A program made the translations under genes and the position numbers. From an uncultured Pseudomonadota bacterium (GTDB lineage Bacteria > Pseudomonadota > Gammaproteobacteria > Ga0077536), in NCBI GenBank assembly GCA_902551695.1, contig CACDEI010000009.1, positions 1-40,922 on the forward strand: a stretch of 40,922 nucleotides of DNA, given 5' to 3'. The notes under the pieces are model-generated. The model did no database searches and was not told the DNA's origin. It saw nothing but the letters and a program-made list of their open reading frames with translations. Shown here piece after piece: positions 29,126 through 40,561 of this stretch (positions within the stretch are counted from its first letter, which is position 1; each line of letters starts with the position of its first letter).

Positions 29126-30187
29126 ATGAGCCGCCTTTCAGTAAGCCAAAGCGATATTGATTTCCAAAATAAGATCCTCGCTGAGGTTTCAAGGACTTTT
29201 GCACTTACTATCCCTAAATTGCCTGACAATTTGGTAGTAGCTGTTTCTAACGCTTACTTGCTCTGTAGAATCGCCGACACCATCGAAGATGATCCCGATC
29301 TATCCTTCTCTGAGAAAAAACGCTATTCGGATTGGTTCGCTCAAATCTTAAGAGAAAGATCCTCCGCAACTGAGTTTTCTACAGAGTTATTGGCCAAACT
29401 TGGAGCCCAGACCAGTCAAGCAGAACGATCATTAATCAAGGAAACTTCTAAGGTTTTAAGAGTTACCCATTCTTTATCGATCTCACAAAGGGAGGCGATG
29501 CTAGAATGCGTTGATACGATGATCGAGGGTATGGTCCTTTACCAAAATAAGGAAACTTTAAATGGCCTTGAGAATCAATCCGCCATGGATTTATATTGTT
29601 ATTATGTTGCCGGCATTGTTGGAGTTATGTTAACAAAAATATTTTTAGATTACGGAACAGACTGGGGCTCTACGCAAAAAGTAACAATGGAGAAATTGTC
29701 AGTATCTTTTGGACAAGGACTTCAAATGACCAATATATTGAAAGACATATGGACTGACAGGAAACGGGGCGCTTGTTGGATACCTCGGGACTTATTTGAA
29801 AAGGAAAACATCGCTCTAGCTAAAATCAAGAACGGAAGAGCCCTTGGCTTTCAAAGGTGCTTAGAGACTTTGATTGGGACTGCTCTTGCTCACTTGGGGA
29901 ACGCTTTAGATTACACCCTCTGTATTCCAAAAAGGGAATCGGGGATACGCCTTTTTTGTTTATGGGCTCTTTTTATGGCCGTACTGACATTGAAAAAAAT
30001 TCATAAAGACCCACAATACCTGGATGGTGAAACCGTGAAAATATCCCGTTCAACCGTGAAATTTGTCATGACCACAACTACACTACTCTCAAAAACCAAT
30101 TTTGGTCTTCGCGTGCTTTTCTATTTATTATCCTTACAAATGCCTAGGCCCAAAAAGCTTGTAACGGCAATATCTTCAAAAAAGTGA
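29126..30187 (+). CDS. squalene/phytoene synthase family protein (farnesyl-diphosphate farnesyltransferase-like)
   Basis: 353 aa; SRTFALTIPKLP, CRIADTIEDD, QMTNILKDIWTDRKRGACWIPRDLF. Confidence 0.88.
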   Translation: MSRLSVSQSDIDFQNKILAEVSRTFALTIPKLPDNLVVAVSNAYLLCRIADTIEDDPDLSFSEKKRYSDWFAQILRERSSATEFSTELLAKLGAQTSQAERSLIKETSKVLRVTHSLSISQREAMLECVDTMIEGMVLYQNKETLNGLENQSAMDLYCYYVAGIVGVMLTKIFLDYGTDWGSTQKVTMEKLSVSFGQGLQMTNILKDIWTDRKRGACWIPRDLFEKENIALAKIKNGRALGFQRCLETLIGTALAHLGNALDYTLCIPKRESGIRLFCLWALFMAVLTLKKIHKDPQYLDGETVKISRSTVKFVMTTTTLLSKTNFGLRVLFYLLSLQMPRPKKLVTAISSKK

Positions 30188-30228: not shown

Positions 30229-30903
30229 TTGCTAATCGGCTTTTTGACACCACTGGAGGCAGAATATAAAACTTTTGAAAGACACAAAGGTAATTTGCGC
30301 ACGGGAGATGAATATACTGTTCAAAAATGCGGGGTAGGCGAAGAGGCAAAATACGCGGCCGAAAACCTGATAAAAGAAGGCGCAGACCTACTGGTAGGAT
30401 GGGGCGTGGGAGGCAGCATGACCCGGCAGTTAAACACCGGGGATCTATTAATATCTTCCTCATTTAAAGACCAGAGGGGGGGCTTTTTTGAATTCCAAAC
30501 GGACTTCGCTGAATTGCTCAATACAGCCTTATCAAAACTTCAGCCCAAAAGGGTCGCGATTTTAACGGTTGAAAAAATGGTCTTAAATCAGAGAGACAAA
30601 GCGAAGCTTATTGAAAAACACCTAACACCAGCTGTCGACATGGAGTCTGTAATAATTGCCCAAACTGCGAAGAAAGCATTCATACCCTATATTTGCGTGC
30701 GAACAATATGCGATGAATTCGAAGCGAAATTGCCAGATTTTTTGGATCAAAGTTTGAAGAACAATGGTGAACCAAACATACCCGCAGTGTTTAGAAACGT
30801 AATACTCAACCCTTCTCAAGCCCTGCCACTTTTTAAATTAGGTTGGGACTTTCGTAGGGCACTTCGAACCTTAAAGCAAGCTGCTAGCTTGCTCATTGTC
30901 TAA
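30229..30903 (+). CDS. hpnG: HpnG-like nucleoside phosphorylase (hopanoid-associated), TTG start
   Basis: 224 aa; GFLTPLEAEYKTFERH, GVGEEAKYAAENLIKEGADLLVGWGVGGSMTRQLNTGDLL, PAVDMESVIIAQTAKKAFIPYICVRTICDEFEAKLPDFL. Confidence 0.75.
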   Translation: MLIGFLTPLEAEYKTFERHKGNLRTGDEYTVQKCGVGEEAKYAAENLIKEGADLLVGWGVGGSMTRQLNTGDLLISSSFKDQRGGFFEFQTDFAELLNTALSKLQPKRVAILTVEKMVLNQRDKAKLIEKHLTPAVDMESVIIAQTAKKAFIPYICVRTICDEFEAKLPDFLDQSLKNNGEPNIPAVFRNVILNPSQALPLFKLGWDFRRALRTLKQAASLLIV

Positions 30904-30924: not shown

Positions 30925-33486
30925 ATGCTAAAACAGATAACAGGAACAGTGGAGAGATACAAATTAACTGTAATCGCTTTCTGGGTTACTCTGGGGACGT
31001 TTAGCGCGTTGTATACGATAGATAACCTCAAAATAAATACTGATACACAGAACTTACTTTCCGAAAAACTAGATTGGCGCATTGAATCTGACAAGCTCAA
31101 ATCCGCCTTCCCCCAATTGTCAGACAATCTTGCAATCATTATAGAAAGCCAAGTCCCAGAATCAGCTCAGACACTATCTGAACGCCTTGTGTATGAAATT
31201 GCCAATGCTCCAGAGCATTTTTCCTTCGTATCGCATTTTCAAAGTAATGAGTTTTTTCGAAAGAACTATTTTTTGTATTTAGACGAAAACGACTTGAAAG
31301 ATCAGGTTGATAAATTAAGTGAATCTCAGGCTTTTTTAGGACTTTTAGCAGAAAGCCCAAACTATGAAACTTTTTTAGACGTACTGCTTAAATCTTTACC
31401 AGAAACGAGGTCTGACCAAAGCGTCTTTCTAAACCAATTCTATAGCTCTACCAGCAAGACTATACGCGCTAACCTTGAAGGCGAGACACTTCCTTTTTCT
31501 TGGCAAAATTTAGTAGAAAAAAAACCGGAAGAGATTACGCGAATTATAATTTTAACCAAGCCTATTCTTGATTTCGAAGAGATACTACCTGCAAAAAACG
31601 CAATCTCTCATCTAGATAAAATACTAGAAGGCATTGTCAAGAAAAATACGCAAACAGTTAACGTCTACGTAACTGGGAGTGCCGCACTGAGTCATGATGA
31701 ATTAATCAGTGTAACCAAAGGAGCAAGCACTGTGGCTTTTGCTGCCGCAGTCCTTGTAACAATTATTTTGTATTTAGGATTACGATCAGGATATTTAATT
31801 ATCGCTAGCCTATCAAGCCTCCTTATAGGATTAGCCTGCACTGCTGGGTTCGCCTCTATTGCTATTGGTACTTTAAACATGATTTCAATAGCATTTGCTG
31901 TTCTCTATGTTGGGTTAGCAATCGACTTCGCTATCCATTTATGCCTACGCTATCAAGAACATTGTGGTACTTTGGTAAAAAAATCAGCCGTCGAATTGAC
32001 AATGCTAGATCTCGGTCGGAGCATCACCCTTTGCGCCTTTACTACATCTGTAGGTTTTTTAGCCTTCATACCAACAGATTATAAAGGAGTAGCAGAACTT
32101 GGATTAATATCGGGTGTCGGTATGCTTATAAGTCTTGTCATAAGCCTAACATTGCTCCCAGCTATCTTGCTCTTACTGCCCAAACCCCGGACTAGCTCGC
32201 AAAAGAAGTGGAAAGTCCTCCAGCTCGTTGATTCGGGAAAGTTTGATAAAAAGATATTATTTCTCTTTGGCGTTTTAGTCATATTTGCCATGGGACAAGC
32301 ACGTAATATTAGTTTTGACAATGACCCAATCAATCTCAACGATCAAAGCGCTTCGTCTGTTAAGGCGTTGAAACGCTTATCCATGGATAACGAAAACCCT
32401 TTAGCCCACCTAACCGTCACCCGCGAATCCATCGAGGAAATAGAAAAAATTCAACGCTCATTATCAGACAACCCCAATGTCGAAAAGACCATCTCGATAT
32501 TATCCTTAGTACCCCAAGACCAAGAAACGAAATTAGTTTTAATAGAAGAACTTGATTTTATTTTGGGTGGAGGCCTAGAAGTTGGACCGATAGAAACTTC
32601 CTCTCCCAACCAAGTTTTAGAAAAGGTAAATTCTATAATAGATAAAATACAAATTAATGAAGCTGCATTTGACGAATCGACAATACAGCTAAAAAACACT
32701 CTCTTGCAACTCAAAACTGCGATCAACAATATGGAAAAGGGGGAATCTCATACCTTGATTAAAAACATCGAGAAAGATACGTTTATTCATTTTCCAAGAC
32801 TCACTACGCTGCTTTCCTCCGCTCTAGAAGCGGAGCCCTTTAATATGGAAGACCTACCCTCCGAAATAAAGAATTTCTGGAGTAGCAATGGGCTCTTTCG
32901 CTTAGATATTCACCCGTCAAAGTTGTCTAACCACAAAACTGATACACGAAGATTTGTAGAATCTGTAAAATCAGAAGTGAAGTCGGGAATTACGGGAGTC
33001 CCAATCATAAACCTTGAAGCAAGCAACTCAGTTCTCTCCGCTTTTCTCCAAGCTTTACTAACTGCTATAGTCATAATTTTTCTTGTGGTCTTTGCTGTTA
33101 GTAGAAAAATATCAGCGTCGCTTCTAATTGTTTCTCCTGTCTGCTTTTCTTGTTTATTTGCTGCCTGCTTATTGACCCTCTTCGATATACCAGTGAATTT
33201 CGCAAATATAATCGCACTGCCCTTACTTTTAGGTTTAGGAATAGACAGTTCCATACATATATACCACCGCTTTTCATATACTCGCACACATTTCGAATTT
33301 CTAAAGTCCAGTACCGCTCGAGCCGTTGTTTTTAGTTCACTCACAACTGCAGCAAGCTTTGGCAGTCTAGCTGTCTCACCACACGACGGAACTGCTAGCT
33401 TGGGATTACTTCTCTCAATAGGTCTAATTTGTATTTTGGTAAGCGCTTTAGTCCTTTCTCCAGCTTTAATGAGAAGATGCACATGA
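30925..33486 (+). CDS. hpnN: HpnN-like MMPL/RND-family transporter (hopanoid-associated)
   Basis: 853 aa with two 6-TM MMPL modules; GLAIDFAIHLCLRYQE and GLGIDSSIHIYHRFSY repeats; adjacent hpnG- and hpnA-like genes. Confidence 0.82.
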   Translation: MLKQITGTVERYKLTVIAFWVTLGTFSALYTIDNLKINTDTQNLLSEKLDWRIESDKLKSAFPQLSDNLAIIIESQVPESAQTLSERLVYEIANAPEHFSFVSHFQSNEFFRKNYFLYLDENDLKDQVDKLSESQAFLGLLAESPNYETFLDVLLKSLPETRSDQSVFLNQFYSSTSKTIRANLEGETLPFSWQNLVEKKPEEITRIIILTKPILDFEEILPAKNAISHLDKILEGIVKKNTQTVNVYVTGSAALSHDELISVTKGASTVAFAAAVLVTIILYLGLRSGYLIIASLSSLLIGLACTAGFASIAIGTLNMISIAFAVLYVGLAIDFAIHLCLRYQEHCGTLVKKSAVELTMLDLGRSITLCAFTTSVGFLAFIPTDYKGVAELGLISGVGMLISLVISLTLLPAILLLLPKPRTSSQKKWKVLQLVDSGKFDKKILFLFGVLVIFAMGQARNISFDNDPINLNDQSASSVKALKRLSMDNENPLAHLTVTRESIEEIEKIQRSLSDNPNVEKTISILSLVPQDQETKLVLIEELDFILGGGLEVGPIETSSPNQVLEKVNSIIDKIQINEAAFDESTIQLKNTLLQLKTAINNMEKGESHTLIKNIEKDTFIHFPRLTTLLSSALEAEPFNMEDLPSEIKNFWSSNGLFRLDIHPSKLSNHKTDTRRFVESVKSEVKSGITGVPIINLEASNSVLSAFLQALLTAIVIIFLVVFAVSRKISASLLIVSPVCFSCLFAACLLTLFDIPVNFANIIALPLLLGLGIDSSIHIYHRFSYTRTHFEFLKSSTARAVVFSSLTTAASFGSLAVSPHDGTASLGLLLSIGLICILVSALVLSPALMRRCT

Positions 33487-34103
33487 TAAATCCGCCTAAA
33501 AACCAAACACCATGGGACGCAAGAATTGCACGCTGGATGCTCTACCCGGTATCTAAAAACCGATTCCTGCACCCAAACCTTTTTACAACATTTAGATTAT
33601 TAACTGGTAGTTACGGCGCGGCTCTCTTTATGTTAGGGGCTCACATGTCAGCTTCGCTTCTTTTCGTGCTCTCGAATTTCTTAGATCACTTTGACGGAGA
33701 GCTAGCCCGCATGACAAATCGTAGTAGCAGATTTGGTCATTTCTTCGACCTTTTTTCAGATTTTGTTGTGACCACCGGCACTTTTTTCTGTATCGGATTA
33801 GGCTTCTATCTCCAAACAGAGCAAAACACATACATCTTTATGGGGGCCATAACCGGCATATCGATAATGGCTATTTTTCACATGCGACACTTGATAGAAG
33901 AAAGTGAAGGGAAGGCTGGAACAGCCCAACCAAACGCCTTCGGCTTCGAAGCCGAAGATATACTATATCTTTTACCGCTAGTTGTGGCTTTCGAATGTCT
34001 GGAAAAATTCATGATACTGGCATCCGTTGGCGCACCAATAGCAACATTTGTTGTATTAAAACAATTGGTAAACGTCAGAAAAAAGAAAGGAACGGCGTCA
34101 TGA
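33483..34103 (+). CDS. CDP-alcohol phosphatidyltransferase family protein
   Basis: Start ATG 33483 overlaps the hpnN stop (ATGA); full CDP-AP motif DGELARMTNRSSRFGHFFDLFSD (DGxxAR-x8-GxxxDxxxD). Confidence 0.9.
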   Translation: MINPPKNQTPWDARIARWMLYPVSKNRFLHPNLFTTFRLLTGSYGAALFMLGAHMSASLLFVLSNFLDHFDGELARMTNRSSRFGHFFDLFSDFVVTTGTFFCIGLGFYLQTEQNTYIFMGAITGISIMAIFHMRHLIEESEGKAGTAQPNAFGFEAEDILYLLPLVVAFECLEKFMILASVGAPIATFVVLKQLVNVRKKKGTAS

Positions 34104-35089
34104 CCTTTTTAGTCACTGGGGCAACAGGTTTCGTTGGGAGCTCTTTGATCCGAGCATTATTGCATAAAGGAAAAGACGTGCGAGTCCTTATTAGGAAAGA
34201 CTCAGATAGGACAAACTTAAAGGGTATGAATGTCGAAATCCTAGTTGGCGATCTTACCGAAATTTCCTCACTTCGAGAGGCTTGCAAAGCAACCGAAGGA
34301 TTATTCCATGTGGCTGCCGATTACAGAATATGGGTCAAAAAACCTAGCGTCCTTTACCAGAATAATGTGCAGGGAACTCTAAATTTGATGCGATGCGCCC
34401 TAGAGGCAGGAATAAGCAGAATAGTGTACACCAGCAGCGTTGCGACTCTAGGAAATTCAAACTCAGGACTAGCAGCGAACGAGACCACTCCAGTTCGTTA
34501 TAAAGATATGATAGGACATTACAAACGTTCAAAATTTTTGGCAGAACGTGTAGTAGAAAACATGATCCGAAGCCAGAGCCTACCAGCGGTAATTGTTAAC
34601 CCTTCAACACCGATCGGCCCGAGAGACCTAAAACCAACTCCCACAGGAAGAATTTTACGGGACGCTGCAGCGGGAAGAATTCCAGCCTATGTAAACACAG
34701 GCCTAAATCTAGTGCATGTAGATGATGTTGCAAGAGGACACATTCTCGCATTTGAGAAAGGCAAAATAGGTCGTAAATACATATTGGGAGGAGATGACTT
34801 TTCATTATTAGAAATTCTTTCAATTGTTGCTAATTGGGCGAATAAAAAGCCTCCAAGCATAGCGTTACCGAGAAAGTTAATATTCCCTGTTGCCTGGTTT
34901 TGCCAATGTTGGGCCTCTCTGACTAATGGGCCCGAACCTCAAATTACAATCGACGGCTTACGCATGGCTGGAAAAAATATGTTTTTTGATTCAGGCAGAG
35001 CTGCGACTGAACTCGGTTACAAGTGGCGACGAGCAGAAAGCGGAATAGTGGATGCTCTTGAGTTTTTCAAGCAAAACAAACTACTTTAG
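34100..35089 (+). CDS. hpnA: HpnA-like NAD-dependent epimerase/dehydratase (hopanoid-associated)
   Basis: MTFLVTGATGFVGSSLIRALL, DLTEISSLREACKATEGLFHVAADYRIW, YKRSKFLAE; ATGA overlap with the upstream CDP-AP gene; ORF-track start 33995 is too early. Confidence 0.85.
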   Translation: MTFLVTGATGFVGSSLIRALLHKGKDVRVLIRKDSDRTNLKGMNVEILVGDLTEISSLREACKATEGLFHVAADYRIWVKKPSVLYQNNVQGTLNLMRCALEAGISRIVYTSSVATLGNSNSGLAANETTPVRYKDMIGHYKRSKFLAERVVENMIRSQSLPAVIVNPSTPIGPRDLKPTPTGRILRDAAAGRIPAYVNTGLNLVHVDDVARGHILAFEKGKIGRKYILGGDDFSLLEILSIVANWANKKPPSIALPRKLIFPVAWFCQCWASLTNGPEPQITIDGLRMAGKNMFFDSGRAATELGYKWRRAESGIVDALEFFKQNKLL

Positions 35090-35150: not shown

Positions 35151-36134
35151 TTATTTAGGCCTTACGCTAAAAAGAGGAAGAATCGCGAGGCTTAAAGAAA
35201 TCCAAAGAATGTCTCTAGCTCGCCTCACTAAAGCAGCTGCAACCCCAAGGGACGCGATACCGGTGAGCATTCCAGCCCCAACAAAAAAAGCGCCCTCTTG
35301 AGTTCCTATCCCAGCCGGAATAAAAAATGTAAGAGTTCTAACGAGCTGGACAAAACATTCAAGCATCCAAGCTTCTTGCAAGGACAGCGGATACCCCAAA
35401 AAATAAAAAATAAGATATATTTCTACTACACCCATAAGCCAGTTAGCAGAAGCAAAAAAGACAGAATAGAACAACCGACTTTTTTCCACAGAATAAAACT
35501 TTTCAAATTGTTGATCGATCCTTTCGGAAACAATAAGTAATTGATCAAAATATTTTTTCTTAAATTTTCGAGCAAGCCTGTAAGTGAACACACTTAGTAA
35601 TTTCAACTTCTGGATCAAAAAAAACACAAAGGTGAAGGAAACTATTATAGAAAAACCCAATGCAGCATTTTGCTTGACTTCATAAGATAAGCTTGGGTGA
35701 TTGAACGAGAAGACCATTCCCAAGGCTACAAACAGCACCAAAGTAAACATACTGGTGGTTTTAGATACTATTAACGCTACGCTTGAGTCAGTCAAAGGCA
35801 CCTGCCAATTAGCTTTCAAGAGCCAGGCTTTAAGTGGCTCTCCGCCTAAGGATGCTGCAGGCGTTATATTGTTGTAAGCTTCGCCCACCATCCTTACGCC
35901 ATAACATCTAATAAACCAGGCGTAACTGAGTGGAACCTTATTTATGGTAAACTGCCAACTCAGAGAATCTGCCGCAAAATAAATACTATAGACAAACATT
36001 ACGACTAAAGCTCCATCTACGCCGATATTTTTTATCTGCTCAAAAAGTACTTGTAAATTTGTCTTTGCCAGAATCACACCAAAAAGGGCACCCCCCGATA
36101 CAAGGAATACAATTTTTAGTTGCTTACTAAACAT
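35151..36134 (-). CDS. LPG-synthase TM domain / UPF0104 family membrane protein (HpnL-like)
   Basis: 327 aa; NNITPAASLGGEPLKAWLLK, FFIPAGIGTQEGAFFVGAGMLTGI, ARDILWISLSLAILPL motifs. Confidence 0.8.
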   Translation of the reverse strand: MFSKQLKIVFLVSGGALFGVILAKTNLQVLFEQIKNIGVDGALVVMFVYSIYFAADSLSWQFTINKVPLSYAWFIRCYGVRMVGEAYNNITPAASLGGEPLKAWLLKANWQVPLTDSSVALIVSKTTSMFTLVLFVALGMVFSFNHPSLSYEVKQNAALGFSIIVSFTFVFFLIQKLKLLSVFTYRLARKFKKKYFDQLLIVSERIDQQFEKFYSVEKSRLFYSVFFASANWLMGVVEIYLIFYFLGYPLSLQEAWMLECFVQLVRTLTFFIPAGIGTQEGAFFVGAGMLTGIASLGVAAALVRRARDILWISLSLAILPLFSVRPK

Positions 36135-36303: not shown

Positions 36304-37038
36304 ATGATAAATACTCATGACGACTTTAATTCCTTTGTGATTGACGTTACCGAGGGGCAATTAGAAGCCTACAAATCCTCGTTCCAAAAAAATGATGAGT
36401 TCATCCTCATTCCAGAATTCATATCGAGAGGGATATTGACTAGGATGCTGCTAGATTCGGAAAAATCAAAAGAGGACGCTCATAGAAGTTTTATTCCAAA
36501 GCACAAGAAGGGAGGAAGTGTCCCACGACCGATCTTAAAAAAGAAATCTCCTATTTTGTCATCGCTATACGAATCAAGAGAAATCTTGTATTTTTTTAAC
36601 CAATTAACTGGGCAAGACCTAAACTTGTGCCCCGACCACGATCTTCATGCGTGCGCACTTTATTTGTATACCGAAGAGGGTGACCACATAGACTATCATT
36701 TTGACACCTCATATTATAAGGGGGCGAGATATACAGCTTTGTTGGGGATTTTGAATAGGTCTGAGTGCCTGCTAGAATACGAGCTTTTTCATAAGCAGGA
36801 GGGTCAAGACATCGTGAAAGATGCATCTCCTGTAGAACCGGGTACTTTAGTTTTTTTTAACGGGGACAAAGTTCGTCATAGAGTGACACCAGCTGGCGTT
36901 GGAGACGAGCGTATTGTGCTGACCCTCGAATACGTGACTGATTCGGAAATGTCGCTCGTAACAAAATTTGTATCGAACATGAAAGACGCGATAGCCTATT
37001 TCGGTTTCCGCAGTGTTTTTGGGACAAAGGACGTTTAG
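36304..37038 (+). CDS. Fe(II)/2-oxoglutarate-dependent oxygenase-like protein
   Basis: 244 aa; HFD (HxD) in YHFDTSYYKGARYTALLGIL, distal H in VRHRVTPAG and R in ERIVLTLEY. Confidence 0.72.
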   Translation: MINTHDDFNSFVIDVTEGQLEAYKSSFQKNDEFILIPEFISRGILTRMLLDSEKSKEDAHRSFIPKHKKGGSVPRPILKKKSPILSSLYESREILYFFNQLTGQDLNLCPDHDLHACALYLYTEEGDHIDYHFDTSYYKGARYTALLGILNRSECLLEYELFHKQEGQDIVKDASPVEPGTLVFFNGDKVRHRVTPAGVGDERIVLTLEYVTDSEMSLVTKFVSNMKDAIAYFGFRSVFGTKDV

Positions 37039-37041
37039 AGC

Positions 37042-37779
37042 ATGCAGGCAATAATATTAGCGGCTGGAATCGGTAAGAGAATATCTTCCTCTCACAATAC
37101 CCCTAAAATTCTACTCGAATTTGACGAGAAAACCCTCTTAGAAAGACATATATCCAATCTTCACCAATTGGGTGCTGGAAGAATCATAATTTGCGCCGGT
37201 TACCAGCAAGAGCTGATCCACAGCGAACTAAAAAAAATAGGTTCCTCCGATGTCGAGATAGTTTCGAATCAAGAATTCCATCTGGGCTCAACTATAAGCT
37301 TGTTAAAAACTCAGCCAGTTGTAAGTAAAAACGAAGACACACTAATTATGGATGCAGACGTGCTGTATCACCCAGAGATTATAAATAAACTAGCAAGCAG
37401 CCAACACAAAAATTGCTTACTGATTGATAGAGAATTCGACGAAGGAGTCGAACCAGTAAAAGTTTGCATAAGAAATCAAAAAATCGTCGAATTCAGAAAA
37501 AAAATATCTCCAAAAGTCGATTATGATATTATAGGAGAGTCAGTAGGATTTTTTAAATTTTCCGCAAATGGTCTGAAATCTATTTTCCAGAAGTGTGAAA
37601 GTTTTGTTGCCGACGGCAAAGAACACGAACCTCATGAAGAGGTAATTCGAGAGTGCATAATTCACGACAGTATAAAAATTGAGGTTGAAGATATTTCGGG
37701 ACTTCCATGGATCGAAATTGATTTTCCAGAAGATATAGTAAGGGCAACGGAAACTGTTTTACCTCAACTACTTATCTAA
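37042..37779 (+). CDS. NTP transferase family protein (LicC/PntC-like nucleotidyltransferase)
   Basis: 245 aa; MQAIILAAGIGKRISSSHNTPKILLEFDEKTLLER, DADVLYHPE, IDFPEDIVRA. Confidence 0.82.
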   Translation: MQAIILAAGIGKRISSSHNTPKILLEFDEKTLLERHISNLHQLGAGRIIICAGYQQELIHSELKKIGSSDVEIVSNQEFHLGSTISLLKTQPVVSKNEDTLIMDADVLYHPEIINKLASSQHKNCLLIDREFDEGVEPVKVCIRNQKIVEFRKKISPKVDYDIIGESVGFFKFSANGLKSIFQKCESFVADGKEHEPHEEVIRECIIHDSIKIEVEDISGLPWIEIDFPEDIVRATETVLPQLLI

Positions 37780-37790
37780 AACTCTAGAAA

Positions 37791-39407
37791 ATGACCAAAA
37801 AAACAAAATTACTTCGGAACTTGCTAAATAAAACTTCTCTGGAGTTTCTCCTAGAGGCCCACAACGGTATAAGCGCAAAAATTGCAGAGGAGGCTGGTTT
37901 TGAAGGCATTTGGGCTAGTGGATTAGCTCTCTCAGCGCAATACGGGGTGAGAGATAATAATGAGGCAAGCTGGACTCAAATTGTAGACATGGTTGAATTC
38001 ATGGCTGACGCCACGACAATTCCGATTCTGTTGGACGGAGATACTGGTTACGGAAATTTCAACAACATGCGAAGGCTTGTGAAAAAGTTAGAGCAAAGAG
38101 GTATTGCCGGAGTATGTATTGAAGACAAATTATTTCCGAAAACCAATAGCTTTATAAAAGGCGAAAAACAAGCCCTTGCCGATGTAGCTGAATTCTCAGG
38201 CAAGATCGCTGCTGGTAAAGACTCTCAACTGGATGAGGATTTTTGCATCATAGCTAGAGTAGAGGCTTTTATAGCTGGTTGGGACATGAAAGAGGCTTTA
38301 TATCGTGCCGAATCCTATAGAAAGGCAGGTGCAGATGGTGTCCTCATCCACAGTTCACTTCCTAACCCCTCCCAGATCCTTGAATTCGCCCAAGAGTGGG
38401 CCAACAGAAGCCCCTTGGTTATTGTTCCCACAAAATACTACAGCACTCCTGTTGAAGCCTACCGAAAAGCAGAGATTAGTATGGTGATTTGGGCTAACCA
38501 TATGCTGAGGGGTTCTGTACATTACATGCAGCAAATAGCATCTACAATCAAAACCAAAAAAGCGGTCACCGACATAGAAGACGACATTGCAACGGTAAAC
38601 GAAGTTTTTAGACTTCAGGGCGCAGATGAGCTTGCCGCCGCTGAAAAACGATATTTTAATGAGACTGCCCAAGAAACTAGAGCGATAGTACTTGCTGCAT
38701 CCAGAGGCGATAAATTCGCTGAGCTGACTGAAAACAGACCTAAGGCCATGCTACCGATAAACGGCAAACCATTGCTCTCCCGCCTAACAGACAGATTCAG
38801 AAAGGCCAACGTCAAGAAGATTTTTGTTGTAAGCGGCTACAAGTCTCAAAGCATTAACGTTCCTAATATAAATCTAGTCGAAAATTTAGATTTCGAGAGT
38901 AACCGAGAATTGGCGTCACTCAACTTAGCCCAGACTCATTTCAACGAAGATATGATTATACTGTATGGCGATTTATTGTTCAGGGGTTACGTTTTGAAGG
39001 GGCTCTTAGAATCAAAGCGAGAATTGACCGTGGTAGTGGATTCATCAAAGAGATCGAAGGAACAAGAGGGCGATAACGATTTCGCCTTTTGTTCTGTTGA
39101 AGATAATAGAGAACTTTGGGGTCAAGATGTACTTCTGGAGCGCATTGATACTAAACCAGAACATAAGGGACGAGACTGTTCCGGTCGCTGGGTAGGCATG
39201 GTTCGTGTACATGGAACCGGTCGAGATTGGATTGAAACAGCTATTGACGAATTAAAAAGCCTTTCAACTTTTGATAATCTTGATTTGGGGCATCTTCTCA
39301 ACAAAATTATCGACAATGGTCACCCAATAAGAGTTATCTATATTCATGGACATTGGCTCAATGTAAATTCCTTGGGTGACTTAGAACATGCCAGATCTTT
39401 TATGTAA
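37791..39407 (+). CDS. pepM: bifunctional phosphoenolpyruvate mutase / nucleotidyltransferase
   Basis: 538 aa; PEP mutase signature [10 protein letters not shown] (EDKxxxxxNS), [17 protein letters not shown]-terminal NTase [32 protein letters not shown]. Confidence 0.93.
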
Positions 39408-39421
39408 AGGAGTAATAAAAT

Positions 39422-40561
39422 ATGATCTTGGCGTCTGATTTCGTAGATACAGCTTGCAATGCAAATTATAAATTTTATGCTGGGGTCCCTTGCTCTTTCC
39501 TAACGCCCTTTATTAATTATGTGATAGCTAATAAAAACACCACTTACGTGAGCGCAGCAAACGAGGGAGATGCTGTGGCGATGGCAGCCGGAGCTTCGCT
39601 GGGCGGTATTCGTAGCATTGCCATGATGCAAAATTCCGGACTTGGGAATGCGATAAGCCCCCTGACATCACTCACTCACACTTTCAATCTACCAATTCTC
39701 CTGATTTGCACTCTGCGAGGCGAACCTGGCCTAAATGATGAACCTCAGCATGAATTGATGGGCGAGATCACATGTGATTTATTGGAAAAAATTAAAATCC
39801 CTTGGGAAATTTTCCCAACTAATAAGAATGACATACCTAGCGTATTGGACCGAGCTGAATCCTATTTCAAAAACAACTCAAGACCCTATGCTTTGGTCAT
39901 GAAGAAAGGAAGCTGTCAAAGCGACAAAATAAGGCTACCAACGCCAATTACCGGGCTGAAGAAAACAACTGAAATCAAAGGATCTGAACCCTCTGAACGG
40001 CCAACCCGGTTAGATATTTTGAAAGCAATAACTGAAAAAAGCAAACAAGCCAATGCAGTCATTCTAGCGAGCACCGGTTACGCGGGAAGAGAATTATATA
40101 AGATAAAAGACGATAACAACCACTTCTATATGGTTGGCTCCATGGGGTGTATATCATCATTTGGACTAGGCTTAGCCTTAGTAAAGCCTGACCTCAAGGT
40201 AATATTGATAGATGGAGATGGTGCTGCTTTAATGCGATTAGGAAACCTCACGACAATTGGTGCTTACTCTCCCCCTAATATTATCCACTTTCTACTAGAC
40301 AACGAGATACATGAATCCACAGGGGGTCAACATACGGTCTCTCAATCGATCGACTTCGCTCAAATCGCCGCGGCATGCGGCTACCAAAATGTAACTCGAC
40401 TAAGCGACGTGGAATTTTTGGATGAGGCAGTATTTGAAGACAAGCAGAAAGGGCCTAAATTCTATCATTGTAAAACACGGGGAGAGAAAGATAGCTCTCT
40501 TCCCAGACCAACAATCTCACCCAAAGACGTAGCCAAACGTTTAAAGGAGTACATCGCTTAA
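39422..40561 (+). CDS. ppd: phosphonopyruvate decarboxylase
   Basis: 379 aa; FYAGVPCSFLTPFINYV, AANEGDAVAMAAGASLGG, LIDGDGAALMRLGNLTTIGAYSPPNIIHFLLDNEIHESTGGQ (ThDP-binding). Confidence 0.95.
   Translation: MILASDFVDTACNANYKFYAGVPCSFLTPFINYVIANKNTTYVSAANEGDAVAMAAGASLGGIRSIAMMQNSGLGNAISPLTSLTHTFNLPILLICTLRGEPGLNDEPQHELMGEITCDLLEKIKIPWEIFPTNKNDIPSVLDRAESYFKNNSRPYALVMKKGSCQSDKIRLPTPITGLKKTTEIKGSEPSERPTRLDILKAITEKSKQANAVILASTGYAGRELYKIKDDNNHFYMVGSMGCISSFGLGLALVKPDLKVILIDGDGAALMRLGNLTTIGAYSPPNIIHFLLDNEIHESTGGQHTVSQSIDFAQIAAACGYQNVTRLSDVEFLDEAVFEDKQKGPKFYHCKTRGEKDSSLPRPTISPKDVAKRLKEYIA

Follow-up and report, generated by a model that had tools for sequence, protein, structure and literature searches.

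A putative phosphonate-lipid module with two dissimilar nucleotidyltransferases in bacterial hopanoid operons

Phosphonate genes downstream of a hopanoid gene cluster

The stretch of DNA analyzed here (hereinafter, the window) is a 40,922 nt contig (CACDEI010000009.1) of an uncultured gammaproteobacterium that contains genes for a squalene synthase family protein, HpnG, HpnN, a CDP-alcohol phosphatidyltransferase (CDPOHPT), HpnA, and HpnL, followed downstream by a block of phosphonate genes (Table 1). Hopanoids are sterol-like lipids of bacteria; among the genes of their cluster, HpnN and HpnA score above the respective profile cut-offs, and HpnG and HpnL below. The phosphonate block includes a gene for a standalone nucleotidyltransferase (NTase; hereinafter, NT1), with the open reading frame (ORF) starting with MQAIILAAGIGKRISSSHNTPKILLEF, and an ORF of 538 aa (37791-39407, plus strand) in which a second NTase-like domain (NT2) is appended to the C-terminus of PEP mutase (PepM). 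A sequence-only reading of this locus described a standalone NTase located 11 nt ahead of a PepM-NTase fusion with an LAASRG loop; the ORFs confirm this arrangement, with the spacer at 37780-37790, and the fusion is borne out also by the PF12804 and TIGR02320 matches. The PepM portion contains the PEP mutase motif EDKXXXXXNS and exceeds the TIGR02320 cut-off. The gene order is common to many genera and hence is not a chance arrangement.

Table 1. Genes and domains of the locus, in window coordinates
Feature	Coordinates	Strand	Evidence
Squalene/phytoene synthase family protein	29126..30187	+	PF00494 E=1e-49
HpnG-like hopanoid-associated phosphorylase/nucleosidase	30229..30903	+	TIGR03468 129 bits, below cut-off 187
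HpnN hopanoid transporter (RND/MMPL)	30925..33486	+	TIGR03480 754 bits, above cut-off
CDP-alcohol phosphatidyltransferase (CDPOHPT), candidate AEP phosphonotransferase	33483..34103 (start at 33483 likely)	+	PF01066 E=3e-16
HpnA, hopanoid-associated sugar epimerase	34100..35089 (start at 34100 likely)	+	TIGR03466 452 bits, above cut-off
HpnL-like membrane protein (LPG_synthase_TM, flippase-like)	35151..36134	-	PF03706 E=4e-31; TIGR03476 HpnL 154 bits, below cut-off 195.7
2OG-Fe(II) oxygenase (HalD/2OG-FeII_Oxy_3-like), hydroxylase-type	36304..37038	+	H132-x-D134...H192...R203
NT1, standalone PntC-type cytidylyltransferase (predicted)	37042..37779	+	PF12804 E=5e-15; 245 aa
PEP mutase (PepM/AepX) domain	37791..38660	+	TIGR02320 379 bits, cut-off 319.6; PDB best 1m1b E=5e-117
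NT2, NTase-like domain C-terminal on PepM, S-R-G loop	38661..39407	+	PF12804 E=2e-12
Phosphonopyruvate decarboxylase (Ppd/AepY)	39422..40561	+	TIGR03297 423 bits, cut-off 312.5
2-Aminoethylphosphonate transaminase (AEPT), truncated by contig end	40563..40922	+	open ORF

A complete copy of the AEPT gene is present in the near-identical locus L002 (12749-13819), where the module is followed by dxs, HpnH, glycosyltransferase, MlaC, and MlaA genes (names read from translations). The dxs gene, encoding the enzyme of the first isoprenoid step, is on the opposite strand (L002, 13799-15673); many families retain it in this position, with the phosphonate genes on one side and hpnH on the other.

The window CDPOHPT contains the CDP-alcohol phosphatidyltransferase motif DX2DGX2AR...GX3DX3D in the form DHFDGELAR...GHFFDLFSD, with these residues conserved in 30 aligned sequences. 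We considered CDPOHPT as a universal feature of such loci and rejected this, given that it is not found near the module in all families: none was seen in the stretch read around the module in families f119, f96, and f63, and in G046, the sole PF01066 match is weak and lies some 14 kb from the module. Three clusters (L138, L140, and L157) contain two CDPOHPT genes each, one in the hpnN/hpnA interval and the other just upstream of the oxygenase/NT1 genes. In Nitrospira, the CDPOHPT encoded next to NT1 (L160, 9258-10802; L162, 7306-8943; L166, 9654-11081) has a long N-terminal region that resembles a degenerate NTase, whereas the Pfam match covers only the C-terminal transferase; this layout and the long N-terminal extension are similar to those of IPCT-DIPPS (4JD0, 2XME, 4MND), where the NTase likewise has a CDP-alcohol phosphotransferase partner.

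The Pfam match of the window oxygenase is to HalD, but the identification of this protein as a halogenase was rejected because the HxD...H triad is conserved, which makes hydroxylation more likely than halogenation. An oxygenase of a different family, PhyH (also 2OG-Fe(II)-dependent), is encoded in the hopanoid-phosphonate operon of family f12 (L153, 15567-16328) and directly upstream of PepM in another gammaproteobacterium (L040, 9122-9907), and is possibly an AEP 1-hydroxylase analogous to the window oxygenase.

Active sites of the two nucleotidyltransferases

NTase fusions make up about 60% of Ppm proteins, and fusions to PF12804 domains a third of all Ppm; in three oral anaerobes, a ppm-fused NTase is accompanied by another NTase encoded 1-2 genes away (Rice et al. 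2019, PMC6697681). The enzymes that have been shown to make CMP-AEP, Ari1348 and Tde1415, are not fused to Ppm, and the reason for the frequent PepM-NTase fusion was left open in that study. Alanine mutants of R15, K25, and K153 of Tde-PntC have less than 10% activity, and E104 and E196 contact the AEP amine (PMC6697681).

When the PDB was searched with a profile of 12 NT1 proteins, Tde-PntC (6pd1) ranked first, with a full-length match (E=1e-18), followed by inositol-1-phosphate cytidylyltransferase (1e-13) and LicC (1e-12). The AlphaFold2 model of NT1 (pLDDT 91) also has Tde-PntC as the top Foldseek match (6pd2, E=7e-19, TMq 0.87), that is, NT1 adopts the MobA-like/LicC-like fold (PF12804) characteristic of PntC. 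In the maximum likelihood (ML) tree, NT1 groups, with support of 92/79, with two Tde-like PntCs and Tde-PntC itself. All 28 NT1 proteins that we tabulated, from Gammaproteobacteria and Nitrospira, have invariant counterparts of R15, K25, D106, K153, E196, E220, and D222, with the catalytic R15, K25, and K153 corresponding to R13, K22, and K153 of NT1. As for the contacts with the AEP amine, E196 is retained as E199 (28/28), and the E104 position is occupied by D (28/28), as in LicC. The signature GXG(T/S)RX4-8PK takes the form GIGKRISSSHNTPK in NT1, where GXG, R, and PK are all in place, with a spacing of 7, and K replaces T/S. By profile, fold, and residue retention (28/28), NT1 is a full-length PntC-type protein that most likely activates a phosphonate as a CMP ester.

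NT1 shares with PntC (N-terminal domain of Tde1415, 6PD1/6PD2; Ari1348) not only the fold and the residues listed above but also the PepM, Ppd, and AEPT neighbors and the combination of a fused and a separate NTase. The differences from Tde-PntC include the low identity (~22%), the absence of fusion with AEPT, and the D at the E104 position, which, given the likeness to LicC, leaves room for a substrate other than plain AEP. Moreover, NT1 belongs to a distinct clade that is linked to the genes for the CDP-alcohol phosphotransferase and HpnL, and to hopanoid genes.

Alternatively, NT1 might be a phosphocholine, inositol-1-phosphate, or sugar-1-phosphate cytidylyltransferase that supplies an ordinary head group and is only incidentally encoded next to PepM. 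The CTP:inositol-1-phosphate cytidylyltransferases (4jd0, 2xme) are indeed the second-best relatives of NT1; in addition, NT1 has the LicC-like D104, and its orthologs are named 'phosphocholine cytidylyltransferase family protein' in RefSeq. Nevertheless, by both profile and fold, PntC is the best-scoring relative, including in comparison with the phosphocholine cytidylyltransferase LicC (1JYK/1JYL), and no lic genes were recognized beside NT1. Furthermore, GESVG and the H/Y-E pair of NT1 match GELVG and Y-E of PntC, in contrast to the inositol enzymes, which differ from NT1 also by lacking its PntC-type residues and phosphonate gene context. In Gammaproteobacteria, Burkholderiaceae, and Roseomonas, the NT1 gene is located beside ppm, ppd, and AEPT, and in Nitrospira, it is accompanied by Ppd and AEPT, with PepM not adjacent. 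Sequence and context thus do not favor the phosphocholine or sugar-1-phosphate identity, and we consider such a role of NT1 to be improbable.

The fused domain presents a different picture. The S/T/A-[R/Q]-G sequence in place of G-X-G is found in nearly all the PepM-fused NTase domains that we compared, including about 50 from Nitrospira, so that LAASRG is a family signature rather than a degenerate oddity of the window, a possibility that we discarded. NT2 retains the K25 and D106 equivalents along with an Arg in the loop. However, in the 23 sequences tabulated, the R15 position is occupied by E, G, A, D, or K; the K153 position is variable, with Lys not being the rule; and the E104 and E196 positions are occupied, respectively, by Y/F and L/M/I/V. 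Thus, NT2 has neither the combination of the signature Arg and K153 nor that of E104 and E196 that mark PntC. At the D222 position, most NT2 have Asn, and four lineages have lost D220, the second of the acidic metal ligands (N in the window's genus, in genus g3, and in G130; G in Burkholderiaceae). The N-terminal half of NT2 is most similar in sequence to LicC, but the signature Arg is missing. An active-site comparison of the kind that the sequence-only reading had proposed thus gives a split result: NT1 keeps the PntC set except for D104, and NT2 has lost nearly all of it.

The loss of the PntC site notwithstanding, NT2 shows no signs of decay. The AlphaFold2 model (pLDDT 89) has an NTase-like fold (Foldseek match to Tde-PntC 6pd2, TMq 0.80), and the dN/dS ratio between the window and L002 is 0.075 for NT2, matching the low value of PepM, compared to 0.14 for NT1, which led us to reject the notion of a decaying relic; in genus g3, the NT2 ratio is 0.16. 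The NT2 domains of Gammaproteobacteria and Nitrospirota form a single clade on a branch of 2.4 substitutions (support 100/99), and the ML tree rejects recent duplication as the origin of NT1 and NT2. Judged by its sequence, NT2 is a conserved, functional domain of PepM in which the PntC active site is gone.

The presence of two NTases had been taken to suggest two substrates. Under this scenario, NT1 and NT2 would both be active cytidylyltransferases, acting on AEP and 1-hydroxy-AEP, or on a phosphonate and a lipid-side phosphoalcohol. The colocalization of the oxygenase with the two NTases fits such a division, as does the conservation of NT2 under purifying selection with the K25 and D106 equivalents and the loop Arg retained; likewise, L040 encodes PepM-NT2 without NT1, so that NT2 might be a working NTase in that genome. 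Against it, nearly all the PntC residues for catalysis and AEP binding, as well as the second acidic ligand in the four lineages, are gone from NT2, which accordingly cannot be a second PntC; the combination of PepM-NT2 with a separate PntC is found also where there is no oxygenase; and the NTases shown to be active are the separate ones (Rice et al. 2019, PMC6697681). The expectation of two phosphonate substrates is thus not borne out, and we regard two active cytidylyltransferases as unlikely; a lipid-side role of NT2 is conceivable. Compared with activation of a second phosphonate, it is more likely that NT2 binds a nucleotide or product and tunes or structures PepM, or that it catalyzes a non-canonical transfer.

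Pairing, distribution, and hopanoid linkage

In the gammaproteobacterial PepM-NT2 loci with intact flanks, a PntC-type NTase is encoded next to PepM-NT2 or a few genes away, with the exception of L040, where PepM-NT2, Ppd, and AEPT are present but neither NT1 nor squalene-hopene cyclase (SHC) was found; L058 is another exception to the pairing. In families f90 and f182, which have no hopanoid genes, a Tde-like PntC is encoded after AEPT instead. An NT1 ortholog (E 1e-60 to 1e-68) unlinked to PepM-NT2 is present in 16 of the 17 Nitrospirota genomes that encode PepM-NT2, and all 10 Nitrospira loci read share the operon Ppd-Ppd-AEPT-NT1-CDPOHPT-HpnL. In one locus (L098, G013), Ppd is directly 3' of NT1, with no PepM in between, and a PepM-NT2-like ORF is on another contig.

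The module, consisting of NT1, PepM-NT2, Ppd, AEPT, CDPOHPT, HpnL, and often, the oxygenase, is associated with the hopanoid operon in at least 8 gammaproteobacterial families, lying within the hpn operon or adjoining it in f1, f12, f29, f63, f86, f120, f133, and f162; in many families, it is embedded between hpnA/hpnL and dxs/hpnH, and in several, the SHC gene is in the same stretch. It is present also in Burkholderiaceae and Roseomonas and, split in two pieces, in Nitrospira. On plasmid pBRH01 of Mycetohabitans rhizoxinica HKI 454, CDPOHPT, the 2OG-Fe(II) oxygenase, an HpnL-like protein, NT1, aepX, aepY, AEPT, and dxs are encoded consecutively, and PepM-NT2 adjoins NT1 in Burkholderia and Cupriavidus records. 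A Roseomonas marmotae plasmid carries hpnH, ispH, CDPOHPT, AEPT, HpnL-like, aepY, aepX, NT1, polyprenyl synthetase, and MMPL transporter genes. A record labeled as a Klebsiella pneumoniae MAG (L057, CAMCBY010000084.1) contains the module at 64% identity, with the same gene layout as L096 of the gammaproteobacterial G020, and is probably mislabeled or mis-binned.

Among 369 genomes of the class Gammaproteobacteria, SHC is present in 20 of the 24 with PepM-NT2, compared to 33 of the 345 others (p=3e-15), and in none of the 6 with other PepM types. These co-occurrence counts were controlled for phylogeny up to the family level: by family, the numbers are 10/12 vs 22/170 (p=4e-7), with the family total being approximate. 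In a phylum-wide sample that left out the window's own genome, all 6 genomes with a strong NT1 encode SHC, compared to 42/392 (p=2e-6). Of the 18 PepM-NT2 genomes reached via loci, 17 encode SHC. In the window's own assembly, which is 72% complete, SHC was not found. The lipid connection of the locus is strongly supported by this genome context.

The context also bears on the acceptor. The CDP-alcohol phosphotransferases of the known AEP and choline pathways use diacylglycerol as the acceptor. The phosphonate might be transferred to diacylglycerol, yielding an AEP analog of phosphatidylethanolamine, or to a glycan, with the hopanoid linkage reflecting shared envelope remodeling. Indeed, Burkholderiaceae have the module away from the hpn core operon, and in Nitrospira it is far from SHC, so that an ordinary lipid could serve as the acceptor. 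In contrast, three sets of genomes show a strong co-occurrence with SHC, many families have the module embedded between hpnA/hpnL and dxs/hpnH, and a Roseomonas plasmid unites hpnH, the MMPL transporter, and the module; all this speaks against diacylglycerol or glycan, which we consider less likely than not as the acceptor. A hopanoid acceptor is favored by the genome context.

A hopanoid-PEP mutase connection has been noticed before: in a 2021 survey of Acetobacteraceae, a Roseomonas hopene cyclase was linked to PEP mutase in a hybrid cluster, as observed here, and a terpene-phosphonate product was guessed (PMC8776678). The link was reported for a few Acetobacteraceae, and the passages on it do not address the NTase logic, a role of the phosphotransferase, or the wider distribution. 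In the literature searched, which left most subscription journals outside its scope, we found neither another report of a hopanoid-phosphonate link nor a characterized compound of the phosphonohopanoid type.

A putative route to phosphonate lipids

We propose, with a probability of about 0.6, that the locus is a phosphonate-lipid module within the hopanoid operon in which labor is divided between two ancient, different NTase families. What the comparison shows is homology, which residues are kept or lost, how the genes are linked, and what co-occurs; we infer all the chemical steps, including the NT1 substrate, and the functions are predicted from sequence, structure models, and gene context. 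Going by the known enzymology of these families, PepM would convert PEP to phosphonopyruvate, Ppd would convert the latter to phosphonoacetaldehyde, and the transaminase would produce AEP. The oxygenase perhaps hydroxylates AEP in some lineages, its target being either AEP or the hopanoid. NT1 would then form CMP-AEP from AEP and CTP, and CDPOHPT would transfer the phosphonate from the CMP ester to a lipid hydroxyl, with release of CMP; flipping or export of the product would fall to HpnL and HpnN. A hopanoid polyol or diacylglycerol would be the acceptor, which is the least certain step. Overall, an AEP-type phosphonate is predicted to reach a lipid, possibly a hopanoid, via CMP-AEP. More tentatively, at somewhat less than even odds, there could be a widespread class of hopanoids with AEP-type head groups, made by NT1 and CDPOHPT and exported by HpnL/HpnN, with NT2 acting as a regulatory or structural pseudo-NTase.

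The combination of a PepM-fused NTase with a separate PntC is already known (Rice et al. 2019, PMC6697681). What is new, as it emerges from genome comparison, is that the two NTases differ in their active sites, that they are paired almost constantly in two phyla, and that the linkage to hopanoid genes is wide. With NT2 lacking the PntC site and a separate PntC retained, the purpose of the PepM-NTase fusion becomes testable, and carriers of the module are available in culture, for example, M. rhizoxinica. From the strong hopanoid linkage, Gammaproteobacteria, Burkholderiaceae, Roseomonas, and Nitrospira are predicted to have a membrane lipid modified with a phosphonate. Such a lipid, if it exists, would bear on the phosphorus redox cycle, on hopanoid biomarkers, and on the functions of hpnA, hpnB, and hpnL, which were described as not established in 2025 (PMC12583986); AEP-hopanoids, in particular, would provide a biochemical role for HpnL.
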